From: Candidatus Raymondbacteria bacterium RIFOXYA2_FULL_49_16
Lineage (GTDB): Bacteria; Fibrobacterota; OXYB2-FULL-49-7; XYB2-FULL-49-35
Direction of reading: 5' to 3'
DNA: 32,091 bases
NCBI GenBank assembly: GCA_001789205.1
Contig: MFYT01000063.1
Coordinates: 40,497 to 72,587, forward strand
The stretch's first letter is position 1; each line of letters opens with the position of its first letter. This document shows positions 19,072 to 28,834 of this stretch, in pieces. The notes beneath the pieces were generated by a model. That model saw only the letters and a program-made list of their open reading frames with translations, was not told where the DNA came from and did not search any database. The position numbers and the translations under genes are program-made.

Positions 19072-19117
19072 GGGCGTCATTCAGCAATTGAAGACAAAAA
19101 TTAGCAGAATGACGCCC
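19072..19117. repeat. 46-bp inverted repeat, copy C
   Basis: Perfect 11-bp arms GGGCGTCATTC and GAATGACGCCC around a 24-nt centre differing from copy B by only two bases. It ends 28 bp before the ATG of the nucleotidyltransferase gene, so a transcript from farther upstream would carry this stem-loop in its leader. Confidence 0.82.
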
Positions 19118-19145: not shown

Positions 19146-20099
19146 ATGATCCTTGCCCAATTTCTCAAATCCCTGGAACACAACTGCAGCAAAAAGCCAG
19201 AATCACTTTGGCCCCTGCGATATTACCTGGGAAAAAACAGCCCAGATAATCAGTCCCCGCCCCATTTCAAAGACGCCTATGCCAAGGTACTGGCCTACTC
19301 TATATTCATGGCAGAGCAGGAGAAAAAGCTTTCATTATTACTTGATAGTATTAACGCATCTCATTTATTATTCAAAGGCTTGGATATCGAATCACGGTTC
19401 TATCCAGGACCAGGCACGCGGCCGCAGTCAGACATAGACCTTCTTGTAGATCCTGCTGCCATGCCGCAGATCCATACCCTGCTTGTGGAAAATGGATTTG
19501 CCTTCAACTGGAGCGGAAATTACCATCATGTGTACAAGAAAGACAGCATAAGCTTTGAGATTCATACTGCTTTCTGTTCGTACAAATACCTCCTCTACTT
19601 CGATTTGCTGAATCTGAACTATCTCGATCTCTTCCAAACAAAATCCCTATCACCCGAACTCTACCTTCTCTGTTGCGCAATCCAATTCTACGATGAAAAC
19701 GCCTCGCGCCCAATCCCGCTTGTCGATATGTATCAAATCATTTCATCGGGAATTGACCTGCACGCATGGACAGAACTGGTAAAAAACCGCTCAGCAGGCT
19801 TTCCCGTCTATTTTGCCCATTTTTGGATGGAAGAACATCTGGGATACTCGCCCTGGACCGAGGAGCTGCTTGCGCCTTTGGGATGGGACAATGCAAAAAA
19901 GAATATTGCGGCAATGGTTGTTAAGACACAGAACATAAAAGAAAAAGATTTTTGGACGCTCTTTAGAATGGCGGACAACAAACCCATGAAGCTTTTAAGG
20001 ACCTTTTTCCCGCCAAAAGAGGTCTATGCAGGCCACGTAGGAGCAGGCCGCTTTCCCCTACTTGCGCATATCTTGAAAACAGCGCGCAGGCTGTTATAA
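19146..20099 (+). CDS. Nucleotidyltransferase-family protein (NTP_transf_5-like)
   Basis: A 317-residue protein. The core LLFKGLDIESRFY followed by RPQSDIDLLVD (Ser95, Asp96, Asp98) matches the GGS-DxD-type active site of the uncharacterised nucleotidyltransferase family often found near surface-polysaccharide and peptide-modification genes. The middle has HHVYKKDSISFEIHTAF, also typical: a third acidic residue in an FEIH strand. The C-terminal half is helical. The substrate is unknown. The ribosome site is weak. It is a lone gene flanked by repeats on the left and convergent with pabBC, overlapping by 6 bp. Its base composition looks more AT-rich than the ruv block, but I did not measure it. 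Confidence 0.78.
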   Translation: MILAQFLKSLEHNCSKKPESLWPLRYYLGKNSPDNQSPPHFKDAYAKVLAYSIFMAEQEKKLSLLLDSINASHLLFKGLDIESRFYPGPGTRPQSDIDLLVDPAAMPQIHTLLVENGFAFNWSGNYHHVYKKDSISFEIHTAFCSYKYLLYFDLLNLNYLDLFQTKSLSPELYLLCCAIQFYDENASRPIPLVDMYQIISSGIDLHAWTELVKNRSAGFPVYFAHFWMEEHLGYSPWTEELLAPLGWDNAKKNIAAMVVKTQNIKEKDFWTLFRMADNKPMKLLRTFFPPKEVYAGHVGAGRFPLLAHILKTARRLL

Positions 20100-21899
20100 T
20101 AAAACGCATCTCTCCCACGTACGCACGGAATTAATCCTGAAAATTTTCTCACTCTGCGCGAACTCCTGGAGCAAAATCGTTCTTTCAATTATTTCACCAT
20201 TGTCTAGCAGGTGCTGCCGAAAGACGCCTGGCAAAAGGCCGCAGGAAATAGGAGGCGTGCATAGGGTCCCATCTATGCGTACGACCAAATTGGCTATCGT
20301 TGTTTCAGTGATCTCATTGTTTTCATTGAATAAAACAACATCATCACAATCCGGACATGCCACCTTTGCCTGTTCGTACAAATCCCTCCAGTCTGTCTTA
20401 TGAAACAAGAACCGGTTCCGCGAATGCACGCCTGTCGTTGCCATACGAAGTTTTACCGGACTCAAGACAGCTGTTGCATCAAGGGGAAAAACCTCATGCC
20501 GCATCTCCCCAGCCCTGCTGGCCAGAAAACGCACTCTGCATTGTTCAAACGCAATTTTCGATGATACATTTTTCAGATACTCTGAAACTTGTTTTTCAGT
20601 TATTGCAAACCCAAAATATTCAACCGATGCCATGAGACGTTTGAGATGATACTCAAGCAGATAATACCCATTGTCCCTGGTCCAGAGCATTGTTTCGAGT
20701 AGAGAAAAGTCCGGTGTTGCTGAAAAGAGTACCCGGGTTTTGGCCAATGCCTCCTGAAACTCTTTTTCTGGATCTGAATCCCATACAATACCGCCGCCTG
20801 TGCCATATGCAACAATTCCCGTCTTCTTATCATAAAGAATAGTGCGGATGGCAACATTGAACTGCGCTTGTCTGTTTGGCCCCCAATAGCCGATTGCGCC
20901 GGTATATATATTCCGGGGTGATTGCTCCAGATCGTCAATGATTTTCATGGTGCTTGCCTTGGGAGCGCCAGTGACCGAAGCGCAGGGAAACAAGGCAATA
21001 AAAATTTCAGGAATGGACGCGTTCGTAGAACCGGAAACAGCTGAAACCATCTGGAACAGAGTATCGTATTTTTCAATGGCGCATAAATCATCGACAGATA
21101 ATGTCCCAGGCCTGCACACACGGCCAAGATCGTTCCTGATCATGTCAGTGATCATGATATTTTCAGCGCGGTCTTTGGCCGAATTCTTCAGCCAGGAAAT
21201 AAATTGTCTGTCTTCTTCAAGAAAACGCCCTCGTTTTATAGTACCCTTCATTGGCCTGCAGTTGATACGATCACCCTGTAACTTAAAAAACAGCTCTGGT
21301 GAAAATGAACAGACAGTAAAATCATCTGTTTCAATGAAACAGGGGTATTTCCCATGGCCACCCATGGCCAGATTCAAAAAGGCATTCTCAAACCTGCATG
21401 ATGTTTCCGCCAGCATTCTGAAGGTGTAGTTTACCTGATATGTATCACCGTTACGGATATGCTCTTTGATTTTGGAAAATGCTTTTTGGTATTGCTCTGG
21501 AGTGACCTCACCCCTGAAGGAAGCATGTTCCAGCGATTTCCCTCTCCCTTTTTCTTCCCTCTCCTCATAGGAGAGGGAGAAGAGGGTTAGGTCAGGGAGA
21601 GGGGCACACGATAAAGGTTTCTTTCGGGGTGAGGTCAGGACCGTTTTATATATTCCAAACCATGCTAACGGAAAATCTCCTGGAACGTGGGTTGTGAGTG
21701 CCTGGTCAAATGCTGGCGAAGCCTCGTACGAAACAAAACCAGCCGCATGCAGCCCTTTTTGCGAAACAGCATTCTCAGCCTCACGCAATAGAGGCAGGAC
21801 CTCCTGCACAGAATGCGCGATAAGAACAGTGATCGGCTCTTTGAAATGAAACCATTGTCCGGAAAGCGTATCGAACAGAATCGCTGAATTATTTTTCAT
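20094..21899 (-). CDS. pabBC: Fused aminodeoxychorismate synthase I / lyase (PabB-PabC)
   Basis: A 601-residue fusion for p-aminobenzoate (folate) synthesis. Residues about 1-385 are PabB: GFVSYEA near 54, chorismate-binding GDTYQVNYTFRM near 151, PMKGTIKRGR, MITDMIRNDLGRVC, and FPCASVTGAPKASTMKII. Residues about 395-601 are the PLP lyase PabC: LETMLWTRDNGYYLLEYHLKRL, the likely Schiff-base Lys in LFHKTDWRDLY, and NEITETTIANLVV. The start at 21899 overlaps the trpA stop by 11 bp. PabA is absent, so TrpG may supply ammonia. Residues about 88-133 are encoded by a palindromic repeat (see 21503-21637). As the last gene of the operon it should be under the trp attenuator. Confidence 0.93.
   Translation of the reverse strand: MKNNSAILFDTLSGQWFHFKEPITVLIAHSVQEVLPLLREAENAVSQKGLHAAGFVSYEASPAFDQALTTHVPGDFPLAWFGIYKTVLTSPRKKPLSCAPLPDLTLFSLSYEEREEKGRGKSLEHASFRGEVTPEQYQKAFSKIKEHIRNGDTYQVNYTFRMLAETSCRFENAFLNLAMGGHGKYPCFIETDDFTVCSFSPELFFKLQGDRINCRPMKGTIKRGRFLEEDRQFISWLKNSAKDRAENIMITDMIRNDLGRVCRPGTLSVDDLCAIEKYDTLFQMVSAVSGSTNASIPEIFIALFPCASVTGAPKASTMKIIDDLEQSPRNIYTGAIGYWGPNRQAQFNVAIRTILYDKKTGIVAYGTGGGIVWDSDPEKEFQEALAKTRVLFSATPDFSLLETMLWTRDNGYYLLEYHLKRLMASVEYFGFAITEKQVSEYLKNVSSKIAFEQCRVRFLASRAGEMRHEVFPLDATAVLSPVKLRMATTGVHSRNRFLFHKTDWRDLYEQAKVACPDCDDVVLFNENNEITETTIANLVVRIDGTLCTPPISCGLLPGVFRQHLLDNGEIIERTILLQEFAQSEKIFRINSVRTWERCVLL
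21503..21637. repeat. Nested palindromic element inserted in frame within pabBC
   Basis: Three nested inverted pairs are visible. Outer: 21503-21522 with 21619-21637 (TGACCTCACCCC against GGGGTGAGGTCA, continuing with one gap and one mismatch). Middle: CCCTCTCCC at 21540-21548 with GGGAGAGGG at 21595-21603, perfect. Inner: CCCTCTCCT at 21557-21565 with AGGAGAGGG at 21569-21577 around a 3-nt loop. The span of 135 bp is exactly 45 codons and keeps the pabBC frame, adding a Lys/Arg/Glu/Ser-rich linker. Similar CCTCTCC-rich palindromes recur in many environmental genomes (general impression, not searched). Confidence 0.78.
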
Positions 21900-22686
21900 C
21901 AAGGGCTTTGCGCATTGACCGGACAAAAACCGAGACGTTCTTGATTGCTTCGGCCTGGGAACCTGCCTGGCCAATTAATTTTACAATAGCACTGCCGACA
22001 ATAATGCCTTCACAATATTGTTTGAGTGTCCGCGCATGGTCAGGAGTGGAAATGCCAAAACCGATTGCCCGCGGCAGGGCAGTCTGTTTCCTGATGCTGT
22101 CCATGAACGCTCTGAAATCCGTTGAGAATTTGCTGCGCACACCCGTAACGCCAAGCGACGAAACACAGTAGATAAACCCCCGCGCGTTTTTCACTATTTT
22201 ACCAATGCGTGTATTGGAAATCGGGGTCACCATTGAAATGACAATAATATCATGTTTGCGTGAGAGCGTCTTCAATTCCTCCTGTTCTTCAAAAGGCAGA
22301 TCGGGGATAATGAGGCCATTGATGCAGGCATGCGCGCACTCCTCAAAGAAATGCTCTGGCCCGTATTGGAGAATGCAGTTGTAGTAAAGCAAAAACAATA
22401 ATGGCGCCTGCACCTGTTTCCTGATGGCAGCGGCTGTACGCATAATGTCCCTGATCCGTATCTGGTTTTTAAGCGCGCGTATATTTGCCGCCTGGATAAC
22501 AGGGCCTTCGGCAATGGGGTCGGAATACGGTATGCCCAGTTCAACAATGTCCGCACCCGCGCGCACCATTGCCTTGACAATACGCTCGGTAGCCACAAGA
22601 GTGGGGTCCCCGGCAGTGGTAAAAGTAATAAGCGCCTTTTTTTTACGTTTGTTCAATTCCGCAAATACAGTGTCAATTCTGTTCAT
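21889..22686 (-). CDS. trpA: Tryptophan synthase alpha chain
   Basis: A 265-residue TIM-barrel subunit that splits indole-3-glycerol phosphate to indole for TrpB. Catalytic Glu49 lies in [10 protein letters not shown]. The second catalytic acid, Asp60 in E. coli, is here Glu60 (PIAEGPVIQ), a conservative change. The phosphate site GFGIS and the [11 protein letters not shown] loop are present. I use the ATG at 22686, 17 codons inside a longer frame, because [13 protein letters not shown] is the family start; it overlaps the trpB end by 14 bp. It precedes pabBC with an 11-bp overlap. Confidence 0.95.
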
Positions 22687-23872
22687 GGATCGCTTCCCCC
22701 ATGTATTTCGCCACGGAATAGACATCTTTGTCTCCACGGCCGGAAAGGTTAAGGACTATGACCTTGTTCTTCGCCATGTTCGGCGCAATTTTCATTACGT
22801 GCGCAATAGCATGCGCGCTCTCAATCGCGGGGATAATACCCTCCATCCTGGTTAGATACTGGAAGGCCTTCACAGCTTCAGCATCCGTGGCAGGCACATA
22901 TTCAGCCCTTCCGGTTGCGTACAAGTGCGCATGTTCGGGTCCAATGCCCGGATAATCGAGACCAGCTGAAATCGAGTACACAGGTAAAATCTGTCCTTCA
23001 TTGTCCTGGAGAAAGTATGAACGCATACCATGCAAAACGCCGATGTTCCCTTTGGTAATAGTGGCAGCGTGTTTTTTCGTGCCAACACCCTTGCCTCCGG
23101 CCTCAACACCGATGAGCCTGACCTTTTTTTCACGGATAAAATCGTGGAACAGGCCTATGGCATTACTACCGCCGCCAACGCAGGCGACACAGCAATCGGG
23201 CAGACGGCCTTCGAGTTTCAGAATCTGGCACCTTACCTCGCGACCCACAATGGCCTGAAAATCGCGGACAATCACAGGATAGGGATGCGGGCCCATGACC
23301 GACCCAATCAGGTAGTATGTTTCGCCCACAGTGGCCACCCAATTGCGCAGCGCTTCGTTGACCGCGTCCTTGAGTGTGGCAGTACCGGAATTGACCTGTG
23401 TGACCGAGGCGCCAAGAAGCCGCATTCTGAAAACATTGAGGGACTGGCGTTCCATGTCTTCACGGCCCATGAATATTTCACATTTCATATTGAACAAGGT
23501 CGCTGCCGTGGCTGTTGCCACACCGTGCTGGCCCGCGCCTGTCTCCGCAATAAGCCTTGTTTTTCCCATGCGCTTTGCAAGCAGCGCCTGTCCAAGCACA
23601 TTGTTGATCTTGTGTGATCCTGTATGGTTGAGGTCTTCGCGCTTCAAATATATTTTAGCGCCACCCAGGTCTTTGGTCATGCGCTCCGCAAAATAGAGGA
23701 GCGACGGCCTTCCCGCATATTCCCTGAGATAGACGGCAAGTTCGTTGTGGAACTTTTTGTCCCTTTTTGCCCCTACATAGGCCTGTTCCAATTCGTTGAG
23801 GGCGTTCATGAGTGTCTCAGGAGCATATTGCCCGCCAAATTCGCCAAACCGTCCTTTTTTTCTTGTTTTCAT
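22673..23872 (-). CDS. trpB: Tryptophan synthase beta chain
   Basis: A 399-residue PLP enzyme that joins indole and serine to give tryptophan. It has the PLP lysine Lys88 in HTGSHKINN, the alpha-contact region LNHTG, the Gly-rich phosphate loop [12 protein letters not shown] and the terminal [11 protein letters not shown] segment. This is the ordinary TrpB1 form that works with TrpA. The ATG directly abuts the trpC stop (TAA ATG), with a GAGAGGA site inside the end of trpC, so translation is likely coupled. trpF, usually just before trpB, is missing here. Confidence 0.97.
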
Positions 23873-24652
23873 TTATCCTCTCAATTCCCGCACCTTTTCC
23901 CGTATGGAGGTTGCGCGCATAAAGGTCTCTCCTATGAGGACCGCGCTGACCTTTGCTGCTTTGAGTTGCTCCATATGGGCCCTGGTAGCTATGCCACTTT
24001 CACTCACAATCACTGTATGTGAAGGAGCACAAGCGGCAAGGTCAATGGTTGTTCGCAGGTCCACCAAAAAAGTCCTGAGGTCCCGGTTGTTTATTCCAAT
24101 TATTGATGCGCCAAGCGCAACAGCCCTGGCCATTTCCTCTTTGTTGTGCACTTCAACGAGACAATGTAATCCAAGCGTGCCAGCTGTTTTCAGAAACAAA
24201 GCAAGGTCAGCATCGGACAAGGCAGCGACAATAAGCAGTATGGCATCAGCTCCTAAGAGCCTCGACTCATAGACCTGCCATTCGTCGACAATGAAATCCT
24301 TGCGCAAAAGAGGTAAATCTACGGTTTGTCTGATCTGTGAAAGAAAATTAGGATGGCCCTGGAAATAGCGCTCTTCAGTAAGCACTGAGAGTGCCTGCAC
24401 ATTGGCGTGCGCATACTCATGCGCCAAGCCAACAGGATCAAAATCCGGCCTGATCAGTCCCTTTGATGGCGAGGCTTTCTTGATTTCGCCAATAATGGCA
24501 ATAGATCCCGGCATTACCAGTGCTTGTTGAAAGTCCTTGACCAAAGTGAGCTGTGATTTTTCCACCGTGACCTTGAGCTGGTTCACCGATTGGGCGGCTT
24601 TCTTTAGACCAATGGTCTTTTTTGTATTTTCAAGAATTTCTTGTAGAATCAT
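23873..24652 (-). CDS. trpC: Indole-3-glycerol phosphate synthase
   Basis: A 259-residue monofunctional enzyme of the fifth step of tryptophan synthesis. EIKKASPSKGLI (56-67) holds the catalytic Lys and phosphate-binding region; LLRKDFIVDEWQVYESR and IIGINNRDLRTF follow, then the VSESGI loop. There is no PRA-isomerase (TrpF) domain attached, as the length shows. A 26-bp gap with a hairpin separates it from trpD, while it abuts trpB exactly. Confidence 0.96.
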   Translation of the reverse strand: MILQEILENTKKTIGLKKAAQSVNQLKVTVEKSQLTLVKDFQQALVMPGSIAIIGEIKKASPSKGLIRPDFDPVGLAHEYAHANVQALSVLTEERYFQGHPNFLSQIRQTVDLPLLRKDFIVDEWQVYESRLLGADAILLIVAALSDADLALFLKTAGTLGLHCLVEVHNKEEMARAVALGASIIGINNRDLRTFLVDLRTTIDLAACAPSHTVIVSESGIATRAHMEQLKAAKVSAVLIGETFMRATSIREKVRELRG

Positions 24653-24660
24653 AATGCTTT

Positions 24661-24679
24661 GGGGGATTGGAATTCCCCC
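24661..24679 (-). other. Intercistronic hairpin between trpD and trpC
   Basis: On the transcript GGGGGA and TCCCCC form a 6-bp stem with a 7-nt loop, starting at the final base of the trpD stop codon and ending nine bases before the trpC ATG. This is the only gap within an otherwise overlapping operon. The G-rich arm is the only candidate ribosome site for trpC, so the stem might limit initiation, or mark mRNA processing. Confidence 0.45.
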
Positions 24680-25704
24680 TAACCCCTGAATCCTTCTGTC
24701 ATTTTCCTTAATTCCTCCACCTTTGCCAAGGCTTTTCCAGAATCAATCGCTGATTCAGCAAGGGCAATTCCATCTTTTATTGATCCTGCCTTTTTACCCA
24801 CATAAAACGCCGCCGCCGCATTGAGCAGAACAATGTCACGGCATGGACCTTTTTCGCCTTTGAGCACGGAAAAAATGATCTTGCTGTTTGCGATAGAATC
24901 GCCGCCAAGAAAATCCTTGCGTGAAGCATGCGCCATGCCATAATCATCGGGAGTAATCTGATACCCCTTGAGATTTCCCTCGCGCACTTCAAAGACATGC
25001 GTAGGGCCTGTCAGGGTAATTTCGTCCAACCCATCGCATCCATGGACCACTAACGCGTGTTCTACCCCCAAATTGAGCAGCACACCAGCCATTTGTTCGG
25101 CAACAGCGCGGTCAAACACACCCAGAAGCTGTCCCTGGGCATTGGCAGGATTGGTTAGAGGGCCTAAAATATTGAAGATGGTCCTGATGCCAAGCTCTTT
25201 GCGCGGGCCAGCCGCGTACTTCATGGATGGATGAAACGAAGGGGCAAAAAGAAACCCTATGCCCGTGGTTTCAATGCAAGCCTGGACCTGTTCAGGAGTT
25301 AGTCCGATGAATATTCCCAGCGCTTCGAGCACATCAGCGCTACCGCTTTTGCTGGAGACCGACCTGTTCCCATGTTTGGCAACCGCAACACCTCCAGCTG
25401 CTGCGACAAAGGCTGCGGCAGTGGAAATGTTAAAGGTCTGTGAACCATCGCCGCCTGTGCCGCAAGTGTCGATGCAATACACCACCTTTGGAGAGATACG
25501 TGAGGCTTTTTCCCGCATGACACGCGCGCACCCGGTAATCTCCTCAATGGTCTCGCCTTTCATCCTGAGGGCCGTGACAAAACCCGCGATTTGCACTGGC
25601 GTGGCCTTGCCTTCCATAATGGATCGCATGGCTTCCATTGCTTCCTGTTCAGTCAGGTTTCTGTTTGAAACCAGCGTTTGTATTGCCTGCTGGATCATTA
25701 TCAC
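24679..25704 (-). CDS. trpD: Anthranilate phosphoribosyltransferase
   Basis: A 341-residue enzyme joining anthranilate and PRPP. The PRPP loop CGTGGDGSQTFN lies near 81-92, with KHGNRSVSSKSGSADVLEALG following, and the C-terminal HGCDGLDEIT helix is also present. It is a separate protein, not fused to TrpG. The frame may begin at GTG 25704 (overlapping the trpG stop as GTGA) or at ATG 25698; the ATG gives MIQQAIQTLV, which suits the family. Either way it is coupled to trpG. Confidence 0.96.
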   Translation of the reverse strand: MIMIQQAIQTLVSNRNLTEQEAMEAMRSIMEGKATPVQIAGFVTALRMKGETIEEITGCARVMREKASRISPKVVYCIDTCGTGGDGSQTFNISTAAAFVAAAGGVAVAKHGNRSVSSKSGSADVLEALGIFIGLTPEQVQACIETTGIGFLFAPSFHPSMKYAAGPRKELGIRTIFNILGPLTNPANAQGQLLGVFDRAVAEQMAGVLLNLGVEHALVVHGCDGLDEITLTGPTHVFEVREGNLKGYQITPDDYGMAHASRKDFLGGDSIANSKIIFSVLKGEKGPCRDIVLLNAAAAFYVGKKAGSIKDGIALAESAIDSGKALAKVEELRKMTEGFRG

Positions 25705-26276
25705 GCCTTTCTGATAGAGAGAAAATTCTTCAGGATTGTTTTGCCTTCAGGGGTCAAAATTGACTCAGGATGAAACTGAATGCCAAAAACAGGGTATTTC
25801 TTGTGCATTAATCCCATAATCTCGCCAGTAGCTGTTTCCGCGGTAATCGCAAAGCAGTCTGGCAAACCCTGTTTTTCAACAATAAGGGAATGGTACCTGC
25901 CGGCTAGTACTCGCGCGGACAACCCGGCAAACAGAGGGCACTCTGGAGAAACCGTGACATCAGAAGTTTTTCCATGCATGAGTTCGTTTGCATGGATCAC
26001 CTTGCCGCCATACGCCTCGCCAATTGCCTGGTGGCCAAGACAGACACCGAGGATTGGAAAATCGCTCCCCAACTTTTTGACCAGTTCTATTGAAATACCA
26101 GCGTCCTTGGGAAAACCAGGGCCAGGGGAAATAATAATATGAGACGGTTTCTTCTCTCGAATTTGGTCAATGGTAATTGCATCGTTTCTGAACACCTGGA
26201 TGTCCGGATTCATTTCCCCTACATATTGGTATAGATTGTAGGTGAAGGAATCGTAATTATCTATAAGAAGTATCAT
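25701..26276 (-). CDS. trpG: Anthranilate synthase component II (glutamine amidotransferase)
   Basis: A 191-residue class I glutaminase feeding ammonia to TrpE. Catalytic Cys79 is in GVCLGHQAI; His169 and Glu171 are in FHPES. The oxyanion segment ISPGPGFP is present. Its ATG overlaps the trpE stop as ATGA. As no separate pabA occurs beside pabBC, this subunit may also serve the PabB part, as TrpG/PabA does in Bacillus subtilis; that is inference. Confidence 0.95.
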   Translation of the reverse strand: MILLIDNYDSFTYNLYQYVGEMNPDIQVFRNDAITIDQIREKKPSHIIISPGPGFPKDAGISIELVKKLGSDFPILGVCLGHQAIGEAYGGKVIHANELMHGKTSDVTVSPECPLFAGLSARVLAGRYHSLIVEKQGLPDCFAITAETATGEIMGLMHKKYPVFGIQFHPESILTPEGKTILKNFLSIRKA

Positions 26277-27763
26277 TGTATTTCTCCCGCTTCGGCCAAT
26301 GCCTTGAGCAATGCCCTGGCTTTGTTAAGGGTTTCTTCGTACTCTGTCTCAGGCACCGAATCAGCCACAATGCCCGCGCCTGACTGCACATACGCCTTGT
26401 TGTTTTTGAATAGTATGGTTCTGATGGTGATGCAGCTGTCGAGATTGCCATTGAAACTCAGGTAGCCAATAGCGCCGCCGTATGTCCCCCGCTTGACGGT
26501 TTCCATCTCGTCGATGATCTCCATGGCTCTGATTTTTGGCGCTCCTGAGAGCGTTCCTGCGGGCAACACTGACATAAGCGCGTCAAACGGGGTTTTATCT
26601 TTCCTGAGCCTGCCGTTCACATTGGTAACAATGTGCATGACATGAGAGTAGCGTTCGACATGGAGTGGATCTTTTACCTGTACTGTGCCAAAATCGCATA
26701 CTCTGCCAAGATCGTTGCGCGAAAGGTCGACCAGCATGCGGTGTTCGGCAAGCTCCTTCTCATCAGCAAGTAGTTCCAGGGCAAGCGCATCGTCTTGTTC
26801 CGGGTTTTGCCCTCTCTTGCGCGTACCAGCAATAGGACATGTTTCAACCTTGCTGTCTTCAATTCTGGTCAGCATTTCAGGAGAAGCTCCAACTACATAA
26901 TAATTATTGAACTTAAGAAAGTACATATAAGGTGAAGGATTAAGTACCCGCAGTACACGATACACGTCAAAAGGGTCTTCTTTTGATTCAACGCACAGAC
27001 GCTGGGAAAGCACTACCTGGAAAATGTCTCCATTCCTGATATACTCTTTGGCCCTGGTAACGTTTGCGCAGAACTGTTCTTTGGAGACATTACTGGTATA
27101 TTCCTGCTTCCCAGCTCCCGATTTCTGAGGTCTGGCAGGCGAACCAGCCAGCGTGCCGCGCGTAGAGGTTATTTCATTATAAATTTCCATAATACGTTGC
27201 GCCGCAACATTGTATTGCTTCTGGATATCGGGCCCCATATGCATGTTTACAATAATATGCAGCTTTTGCTTGAAATGGTCGCAAACCAGGACTTCATCCG
27301 TGAACATAAAATGACTCTCAGGCAGCATGAGATCGTCTTTTGGCGTATTGGGTAGACATTCGTAGTATCGAATAAGGTCGTATCCGAAAAAGCCCACTGC
27401 GCCGCCATTGAACCGCGGCAGATCGGGTCCGCTTGGACTGCGGTATTTTTCCAGAATGCCGTGCAATGTTTCAACCGGATTGCCCTTCACTTCGCTGGTC
27501 ACGCCAGTGCGCTCATTCCTAATACGTGAAACACCCTGCCTGCTTTCTACGGTCAGGAAAGGGTTGCGGCCCAGGAACGAGTACCTACCCCACTTCTCTC
27601 CGCCCTCAACGCTTTCAAGCAGAAAACAATAATCGTTTTTCTGGAAGCGTTTGAACAGGGTAATAGGCGTTTCCATATCAGAATAGACTTCAAGGGAAAG
27701 GGGAACAACGCCGTACGACCCGGCATAGCAGGCCGCTTCTTCATATGTTGGTTTGATATTCAT
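26273..27763 (-). CDS. trpE: Anthranilate synthase component I
   Basis: A 496-residue chorismate-using enzyme for the first step of the tryptophan branch. The feedback motif LLES (48-51) suggests inhibition by tryptophan. Catalytic motifs include GDIFQVVLSQR, CPIAGTRKRGQ, LVDLSRNDLGRVC, PAGTLSGAPKIRAMEII and GGAIGYLSFNGNLDSCITIRT. I place the start at the ATG at 27763, with GGAG (CAGGAGAAAAAAG) just upstream; the frame runs 14 codons farther, into the attenuator stem. It is the first structural gene of the operon after the leader and terminator. Confidence 0.96.
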   Translation of the reverse strand: MNIKPTYEEAACYAGSYGVVPLSLEVYSDMETPITLFKRFQKNDYCFLLESVEGGEKWGRYSFLGRNPFLTVESRQGVSRIRNERTGVTSEVKGNPVETLHGILEKYRSPSGPDLPRFNGGAVGFFGYDLIRYYECLPNTPKDDLMLPESHFMFTDEVLVCDHFKQKLHIIVNMHMGPDIQKQYNVAAQRIMEIYNEITSTRGTLAGSPARPQKSGAGKQEYTSNVSKEQFCANVTRAKEYIRNGDIFQVVLSQRLCVESKEDPFDVYRVLRVLNPSPYMYFLKFNNYYVVGASPEMLTRIEDSKVETCPIAGTRKRGQNPEQDDALALELLADEKELAEHRMLVDLSRNDLGRVCDFGTVQVKDPLHVERYSHVMHIVTNVNGRLRKDKTPFDALMSVLPAGTLSGAPKIRAMEIIDEMETVKRGTYGGAIGYLSFNGNLDSCITIRTILFKNNKAYVQSGAGIVADSVPETEYEETLNKARALLKALAEAGEIQ

Positions 27764-27798: not shown

Positions 27799-27832
27799 AA
27801 AACACGAAACCCGCTCAATTGAGCGGGTTTCG
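27799..27832 (-). terminator. Attenuator terminator of the trp operon
   Basis: A perfect 28-nt palindrome (arms CGAAACCCGCTCAA and TTGAGCGGGTTTCG, 27805-27832) followed on the minus strand by TGTTTT. The 5' arm is segment 3 and the 3' arm segment 4 of the attenuator; it lies 36 bases before trpE. The core resembles the E. coli trp attenuator in stem content (GCCCGC...GCGGGC), an impression from memory. The T-run is interrupted, so termination may be partial. Confidence 0.82.
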
Positions 27833-27917
27833 ATATGTTCTGTTGCTATGCAAAATACAAGAACGCTATACCGTTTCCCGCCCAAGGCATGTTCTGCACC
27901 ATCGCCACCACGGGCGG
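27805..27917 (-). promoter_or_regulatory. trp attenuator RNA with alternative pairings
   Basis: Segment 1 (CCGCCC, 27912-27917) sits just before the Trp codons and pairs with GGGCGG (27878-27883). Segment 2 (TTGGGCGGG, 27877-27885) pairs over 9 bp, one of them G-U, with segment 3 (CCCGCTCAA, 27819-27827), the 5' arm of the terminator. Thus 1:2 permits the terminator and 2:3 blocks it. A ribosome stalled at TGG TGG CGA TGG (27899-27910) would cover segment 1 and free segment 2, giving read-through when tryptophan is scarce. All pairings were found by eye; energies were not computed. Confidence 0.82.
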
Positions 27918-27955
27918 CCGAAAGCATTACCAAGAATACGGTTGTTACTGTTCAC
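27866..27955 (-). CDS. trpL: trp leader peptide with tandem Trp codons
   Basis: A 29-residue ORF beginning GTG at 27955 and ending TAG at 27866. It carries Pro-Trp-Trp-Arg-Trp at residues 15-19 (three TGG codons in four). Trp is the rarest residue, so this cluster at exactly the right place relative to the alternative stems is strong evidence of a leader peptide. The start is the least certain point: no clear ribosome site precedes GTG, and an in-frame TTG lies at 27976. The predicted -10 box is so close that the mRNA might even be leaderless. Too short to be found by ordinary gene callers. Confidence 0.78.
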   Translation of the reverse strand: MNSNNRILGNAFGRPWWRWCRTCLGRETV

Positions 27956-27961
27956 GCTTAT

Positions 27962-27990
27962 AAAATATATAATCAACTGCGTTGTGTCCA
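27962..27990 (-). promoter_or_regulatory. Putative trp operon promoter
   Basis: TGGACA at 27985-27990, 17 bases, then TATTTT at 27962-27967, within an AT-rich run. Transcription would start close to the leader GTG. The fit is moderate and other registers (TATATT with 15-bp spacing) are possible, so the exact promoter is uncertain. Confidence 0.45.
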
Positions 27991-28030
27991 GGATTTTTTA
28001 ATAATGCCCTAAAACGCGGCCAGGATGTAC

Positions 28031-28075
28031 GGACGTTATTCTTCAAAAAAGGCATTCATTTGATGAATAACGCCC
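28031..28075. repeat. 46-bp family inverted repeat, copy D
   Basis: Arms GGACGTTATTC and GAATAACGCCC pair with one mismatch in a 45-bp unit preceded by GTAC and followed by CT, as in copies A-C. One stem pair has changed from C-G to T-A relative to copies B and C, with both sides altered, so the structure rather than the sequence seems kept. It lies between the trp promoter and the lipoprotein gene; the rest of 27991-28138 shows only AT-rich sequence. Confidence 0.7.
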
Positions 28076-28138
28076 CTCCAAAATACAAAACAGCTTTTTA
28101 TGGGAAAACAAGCCTGTAAAAACAGTATATTTTATACC

Positions 28139-28834
28139 ATGAAGACATTTATTGCCCTTGCATGCCTGGCCCTGCTTTCCGGGTGTTATACCCAGTTGAT
28201 GACCTATAGCGATGCCCGGCAGGCCTTTCAGCCCAACATACAGCAACCGGCTGACTCAACAGCGGACTCAATAAACACCGAAGCCACAGAAAATCAAGAC
28301 ACCAACACACCCGGAGTAACAAACCAGCAACAAGGATGCAACTGCTCTGAATTCGAGCGCATGCACGACCTCTGCTGGTGCATCTGCGACCGGTGCGGAA
28401 CGTATCATCGCTTTGGGTACCAGTACTGCCCGTCACGCTTTTATAATTCATACTGGGGATGGGATTATTACTACGAACACCCCTGGTGGTACAACAGCTA
28501 TTATCGCAGTTCCAGGGGATATTATGACAACCGCAACAGATATTATTCACACGACGATTATTACCACAACTATGGCTCCCCCTCCGCCCCTGCGGGTAGT
28601 TCTCTTCCCCGCACACAGGAAAAGCCAAAGAAAAACCGGGGCATGGTAGACCCTGTTCCGAGTTCATCGACGCTCAATAAGCCTGTGATTGAAAGTCCGC
28701 AGCCTGCTGCCCAGCAACCAGCCTCCCAAAGCAGCGGCAGCAACGGTGAATCTTCCTCTCCCCCTCCCAGCAAACCAGTCCAGACAAACACCAAGGATAA
28801 ACCTCAAAAAAACAGAGGACAGGTCGATGAATAA
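28139..28834 (+). CDS. Tyr/Cys-rich lipoprotein, unknown
   Basis: A 231-residue lipoprotein with lipobox LLSGC (lipidated Cys16). It has a Ser/Thr/Gln-rich spacer, a Cys cluster (GCNCSEFERMHDLCWCICDRCG, near residues 65-87), a long Tyr-rich stretch with many His, Trp and Asn residues (YNSYWGWDYYYEHPWWYNSY), and a Pro/Ser/Gln-rich tail. The tail carries a duplicated motif: KKNRGMVD and QKNRGQVD. The Cys cluster might bind metal. I use ATG 28139, not 28100, because it gives a normal lipoprotein signal; no ribosome site is evident. It overlaps the following outer-membrane protein gene by 8 bp, so the pair is likely one unit. Confidence 0.78.
   Translation: MKTFIALACLALLSGCYTQLMTYSDARQAFQPNIQQPADSTADSINTEATENQDTNTPGVTNQQQGCNCSEFERMHDLCWCICDRCGTYHRFGYQYCPSRFYNSYWGWDYYYEHPWWYNSYYRSSRGYYDNRNRYYSHDDYYHNYGSPSAPAGSSLPRTQEKPKKNRGMVDPVPSSSTLNKPVIESPQPAAQQPASQSSGSNGESSSPPPSKPVQTNTKDKPQKNRGQVDE

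Follow-up and report, generated by a model that had tools for sequence, protein, structure and literature searches.

A ribosome-mediated trp attenuator with a predicted leaderless leader peptide in Fibrobacterota

The trpL attenuator RNA of Sinorhizobium meliloti starts at the start codon of the leader peptide, its upstream open reading frame (uORF) being leaderless (PMC7298713), and the trp attenuators of Corynebacterium and Streptomyces combine GC-rich terminators with leader peptides in which UGG codons occur in twos or threes (PMC1262725). In the initial annotation of the window (the whole stretch of 32,091 nucleotides that was analysed), a complete trp attenuator with alternative pairings was proposed upstream of trpE, and the proposal is borne out by the leader ORF, the Trp codons, the terminator, the folding and the relatives (Table 1). 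The element is a real and mechanistically ordinary ribosome-mediated trp attenuator, whose response to Trp is predicted from the folding models. Our reading, to which we would assign a probability of roughly 0.93, is that it sets the expression of trpEGDCBA-pabBC according to the supply of charged tRNA-Trp, with leaderless initiation of the leader included. With 18.1 bits (E 0.26) against a gathering score of 41 bits, it lies by Rfam's model outside the Trp_leader family (RF00513).

Table 1. Features of the trp operon and of its leader region in the window
Feature	Position	Strand	Basis or remark
trpE, anthranilate synthase component I, first structural gene	26273..27763	minus	NCBIfam TIGR00564, 583 bits, above cut-off
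trpG	25701..26276	minus	NCBIfam TIGR00566
trpD	24679..25704	minus	NCBIfam TIGR01245
trpC	23873..24652	minus	NCBIfam NF001377
trpB	22673..23872	minus	NCBIfam TIGR00263
trpA	21889..22737	minus	NCBIfam TIGR00262
pabB-pabC fusion, last gene of the run	20094..21974	minus	TIGR00553, just above cut-off
Segment 1, CCGCCC, weakly supported protector arm	27912..27917	minus	pairs with segment 2 in full-length MFE
Segment 2, TTGGGCGGG, antiterminator 5' arm	27877..27885	minus	folding, shuffles, pairing in relatives
Segment 3, CCCGCTCAA, antiterminator 3' arm, within terminator 5' arm	27819..27827	minus	folding, shuffles, relatives
Intrinsic terminator hairpin, 12 bp + AAUU loop, then TGTTTT	27805..27832	minus	folding, P(terminator)=0.99
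Leader peptide ORF trpL, VNSNNRILGNAFGRPWWRWCRTCLGRETV	27866..27955	minus	29 aa, GTG start, TAG stop
Regulatory codons TGG TGG CGA TGG (Trp-Trp-Arg-Trp)	27899..27910	minus	sequence, Trp runs in relatives
Predicted sigma-70-type promoter TGGACA-17-TATTTT	27962..27990	minus	-10 ends 6 nt before leader GTG

The 29-residue leader ORF with its Trp-Trp-Arg-Trp run is present on the minus strand as annotated (27955-27866), with 29 codons counted from the GTG at 27955 and a TAG stop at 27868-27866, and the Trp codons do lie directly behind segment 1, a single base separating CCGCCC (27917-27912) from TGG TGG CGA TGG. Segments 2 and 3 pair over nine bases, as had been proposed; the helix is uninterrupted and has one G-U pair, and when the spacer was dinucleotide-shuffled, 7 of 500 shuffles matched its score. 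The terminator, which sits between the leader ORF and trpE, has a stem of 12 bp and not of the 14 bp initially given, a figure that comes from the region 27832-27805 being a perfect 28-nt palindrome, the central AAUU of which forms the loop of the RNA hairpin. The sequence 3' of the hairpin is TGTTTTATG, with a short T-run. The whole region folds with a z score of about -2.7, and 2 of 200 shuffles folded equally well.

The gene order trpE-G-D-C-B-A-pabBC expected behind the attenuator was confirmed by NCBIfam, and trpE carries its own AGGAG-type ribosome site. The true start of trpA is probably inside the ORF, since the NCBIfam match begins at residue 25, and the C-terminus of the pabB-pabC fusion gave PRK07546 matches below their cut-offs. 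The trpF gene is found outside the operon, on another contig of the same genome (G000:C73:1553-2146, G000 being the window's genome). Adjoining the attenuator is a divergent gene (28100-28834, plus strand) encoding a Tyr/Asn-rich, putatively lipoprotein-like product with no NCBIfam match. The window also holds, at 19072-19117, a dispersed palindromic repeat of ca. 45 bp (GGGCGTCATTC-N22-24-GAATGACGCCC), a pattern found at 31 places in the genome and at none for the reversed control pattern; a degenerate copy is located at about 28026-28072, just upstream of the trp promoter.

The behaviour of the leader was analysed by folding the RNA that begins with the GTG and ends with segment 3. Blocked bases stood for a ribosome, whose footprint was assumed to extend 12 nt to the 5' side of the P site and 15 nt to its 3' side. 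When the ribosome was placed at the first Trp codon, as in a stall, the 9-bp antiterminator was the MFE structure, and the mean probability that the 5' arm of the terminator pairs upstream was 0.75. With the ribosome at the stop codon the antiterminator was lost, leaving a residual, weaker upstream pairing of the terminator arm (0.29; 0.50 in G001, the only order-mate of the window's genome), and in the free complete transcript the terminator was formed (P 0.99). In these foldings the antiterminator and the terminator are mutually exclusive and the former is free during a stall at the Trp codons, so that the logic of ribosome-mediated attenuation described in the initial annotation is reproduced. 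The naked truncated transcript favours the 2:3 pairing likewise (0.75), which indicates that termination relies on the ribosome covering segment 2 and not on a strong 1:2 hairpin; as the stop codon is only 8 nt past segment 2, the terminating ribosome itself would mask that segment. The proposed pairing of segment 1 with segment 2 held in part: CCGCCC pairs with GGGCGG in the full-length MFE structure, but when the RNA ends before segment 4 and carries no ribosome, 1:2 fails to beat 2:3 and also faces competition from a local GCCGCC:GGUGGC hairpin. The 1:2 hairpin is therefore treated as unproven, and in these models this weakly supported protector appears to be the weakest part of the attenuator.

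According to the mechanism that we propose, transcription would begin with the GTG or immediately beside it, and a ribosome would load at the 5' end of the RNA by leaderless initiation. When Trp-tRNA is scarce this ribosome would stall at TGG TGG CGA TGG, leaving segment 2, about 25 nt downstream of the stall, free to pair with segment 3, by which the terminator would be blocked and the operon transcribed. When Trp is ample, the ribosome would be expected to reach the TAG and to cover segment 2, so that segment 3 would pair with segment 4 and transcription would stop before trpE.

The relatives searched were members of the phylum of the window, among them G001 (a Fibrobacteres MAG, L069), the order being represented by G000 and G001 only. 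According to the initial annotation, relatives without the Trp codon run or the alternative pairings would have refuted the proposal; the run is carried by this order-mate and by 24 genomes of the family f3, which is probably Fibrobacteraceae, so that the proposal passed this check. In G001, trpE is preceded by a Trp-run leader (MKTSNNKVLMWWWQGN...) starting with ATG (MKTSNNKVLMWWWQGNITSLERAFIAN), by a terminator and by an 11-bp antiterminator (TTTGGAGCGGG with CCCGCTTCAAA) that was matched by none of 500 shuffles and that has, with respect to that of the window, an extra internal A-U pair, both strands having changed together. In the 24 f3 genomes, the leader ORF ahead of trpE contains WW or WWW (e.g. 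MMNFVTTATLNRRWWRGL, MRFFCMNNTWWWQVP, MNYSIITLNGNNWWWRTLKSEYAF); in another member of f3, L055 (genome G052), the leader is absent and trpE appears, by eye, to follow trpA, and no TrpE match was found in G026 of the same family. In most of the other families of the phylum that were sampled, no leader of this kind was seen immediately before trpE. Two candidates were discounted, namely a second chorismate-binding gene of G001 with an upstream WW ORF, from which it is separated by a tRNA-like gene (read by eye), and a WW ORF with a terminator in L014, distant from trpE by 230-370 nt. L095 (a Syntrophaceae MAG) and L142 (a Balneolales MAG) also have WWW leader-like ORFs, situated some 140-240 nt before trpE.

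Pairing was examined in detail in fifteen leaders, including those of the window and G001. In all of these, segment 2 is complementary to segment 3 despite differing sequences, with a mismatch in five of them, and the alternative pairings expected in relatives thus recur where they were examined. The antiterminator is uninterrupted in the other ten (compare GAGTCTGG with CCAGACTC and ATCGGAGT with GCTCCGAT), that of L033 being weaker, with 19 of 500 shuffles as good. In the five with a mismatch, which are Fibrobacter-like, GAGCCCGG faces CCGGACTC with one C x A mismatch, the longest uninterrupted helix is at chance level, and a stall raises the probability of the antiterminator modestly (e.g. 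from 0.26 to 0.33), making for a weak switch. Because the leaders of three families are not alignable base by base, complementarity kept between differing sequences carries the argument in place of a formal covariation count. In the 15 leaders, the distance from the first Trp codon to the beginning of segment 2 is 20-26 nt, and segment 2 begins between 25 nt before and 8 nt after the stop codon, a proximity such that a terminating ribosome would reach or abut segment 2 in all of them.

Leaderless initiation is predicted from the position of the promoter. Among 25 leaders scored, drawn from three families and including those of the window and L035, the best promoter had in every case a 17-nt spacer and a -10 box ending 6-8 nt before a leader start codon. 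Of 168 other ATGs in these stretches, just one showed this promoter-to-start arrangement, a result somewhat favoured by the choice of the start according to promoter fit where several in-frame ATGs were available, and the f3 leaders are not independent, as many are close relatives. Since the window promoter alone is no better than chance (1 found, 1.1 expected), it is the comparison across leaders that carries the argument. In 10 of 15 leaders examined for a Shine-Dalgarno sequence there is no match of at least 3 bases, and the other five have 3-4 bases. The conserved spacing thus strengthens what had been a guess about the GTG of the window, namely that the leader mRNA is leaderless, and transcription is predicted to start at the leader start codon.

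It could alternatively be that attenuation is genuine but translation of the leader starts within a conventional 5' UTR, with a promoter further upstream and perhaps with the in-frame TTG at 27976, 21 nt upstream of the GTG, as the start. GTG is a poorer leaderless start than AUG and an uncommon one, and the promoter match of the window is weak by itself. We consider this unlikely, however, because the TTG falls in the promoter spacer, beside the -10 box, neither the TTG nor the GTG start has a convincing Shine-Dalgarno sequence, and the spacing of 6-8 nt between -10 box and start recurs in the other scored leaders of the three families. It is less likely still, besides attenuation with leaderless initiation, that the leader RNA released by termination, of about 150 nt, or the peptide would also act in trans, as do rnTrpL and peTrpL of S. 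meliloti, where a terminated small RNA carries a leaderless uORF (PMC7298713), the layout predicted here as well; trans action is suggested here purely by analogy.

In a rough tree of 34 TrpE sequences, in which bootstrap values are not settled, the window and G001 group with two MAGs labelled as Clostridia, L068 and L070 (100/99), apart from the rest of the phylum, and f3 is found on a long separate branch. The trpE leaders of L068 and L070, read by eye, contain GAG-rich, TRAP-like repeats and a terminator. These TRAP-like repeats, borne by the TrpE neighbours of the window in place of a Trp-codon leader, speak for the alternative that trpE is preceded by a plain terminator or by some other trp control (T-box, TRAP, repressor) and that the Trp codons are there by chance. 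This alternative is highly improbable, since neither a T-box nor any other Rfam element reaches threshold and the Trp run with its matched antiterminator recurs in relatives. At gathering level Rfam gave no match in the window and no leader match in nine relatives; one TPP riboswitch was seen elsewhere in L033 in that scan. A PLSDB megablast search with trpE and its leader as the query gave no match. Because the TrpE proteins of window/G001 and of f3 are on separate branches, the same type of attenuator switch is found with two trpE lineages. It is possible, and we suggest it tentatively, that a leaderless trp attenuator is a trait of two separate parts of the Fibrobacterota, either because the cassette of promoter and leader has outlived a replacement of the genes that follow it or because such attenuators have arisen twice.

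No trp attenuation in Fibrobacter was found described in the literature searched, which covered subscription papers only in small part, and an earlier prediction may exist. With these results the textbook mechanism of trp attenuation reaches a phylum that had no Rfam entry and for which that literature gave no description, and leaderless initiation is predicted as a conserved mode of starting these leaders, so that coupling of ribosome and polymerase from the first nucleotides becomes testable in cultivable Fibrobacter. With the enterobacterial trp attenuator the one described here shares a leader peptide with Trp codons and mutually exclusive antiterminator and terminator ahead of a trp operon, whereas it differs in the stop codon located after segment 2, in the predicted leaderless start, in the weak 1:2 hairpin, and in having pabBC after trpA and trpF elsewhere. 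Judging from their description, the actinobacterial attenuators likewise combine a leader peptide with a UGG run and a terminator ahead of the trp operon, in a different phylum. In mode of initiation it resembles S. meliloti trpL/rnTrpL, also an attenuator with a leaderless uORF (a feature only predicted here), which belongs to another phylum and precedes trpE(G), while the present one has a GTG start and precedes the whole trpEGDCBA. The mechanism is thus a textbook one and a leaderless trpL was already known from S. meliloti; what appears to be new is the occurrence of such an attenuator in Fibrobacterota.
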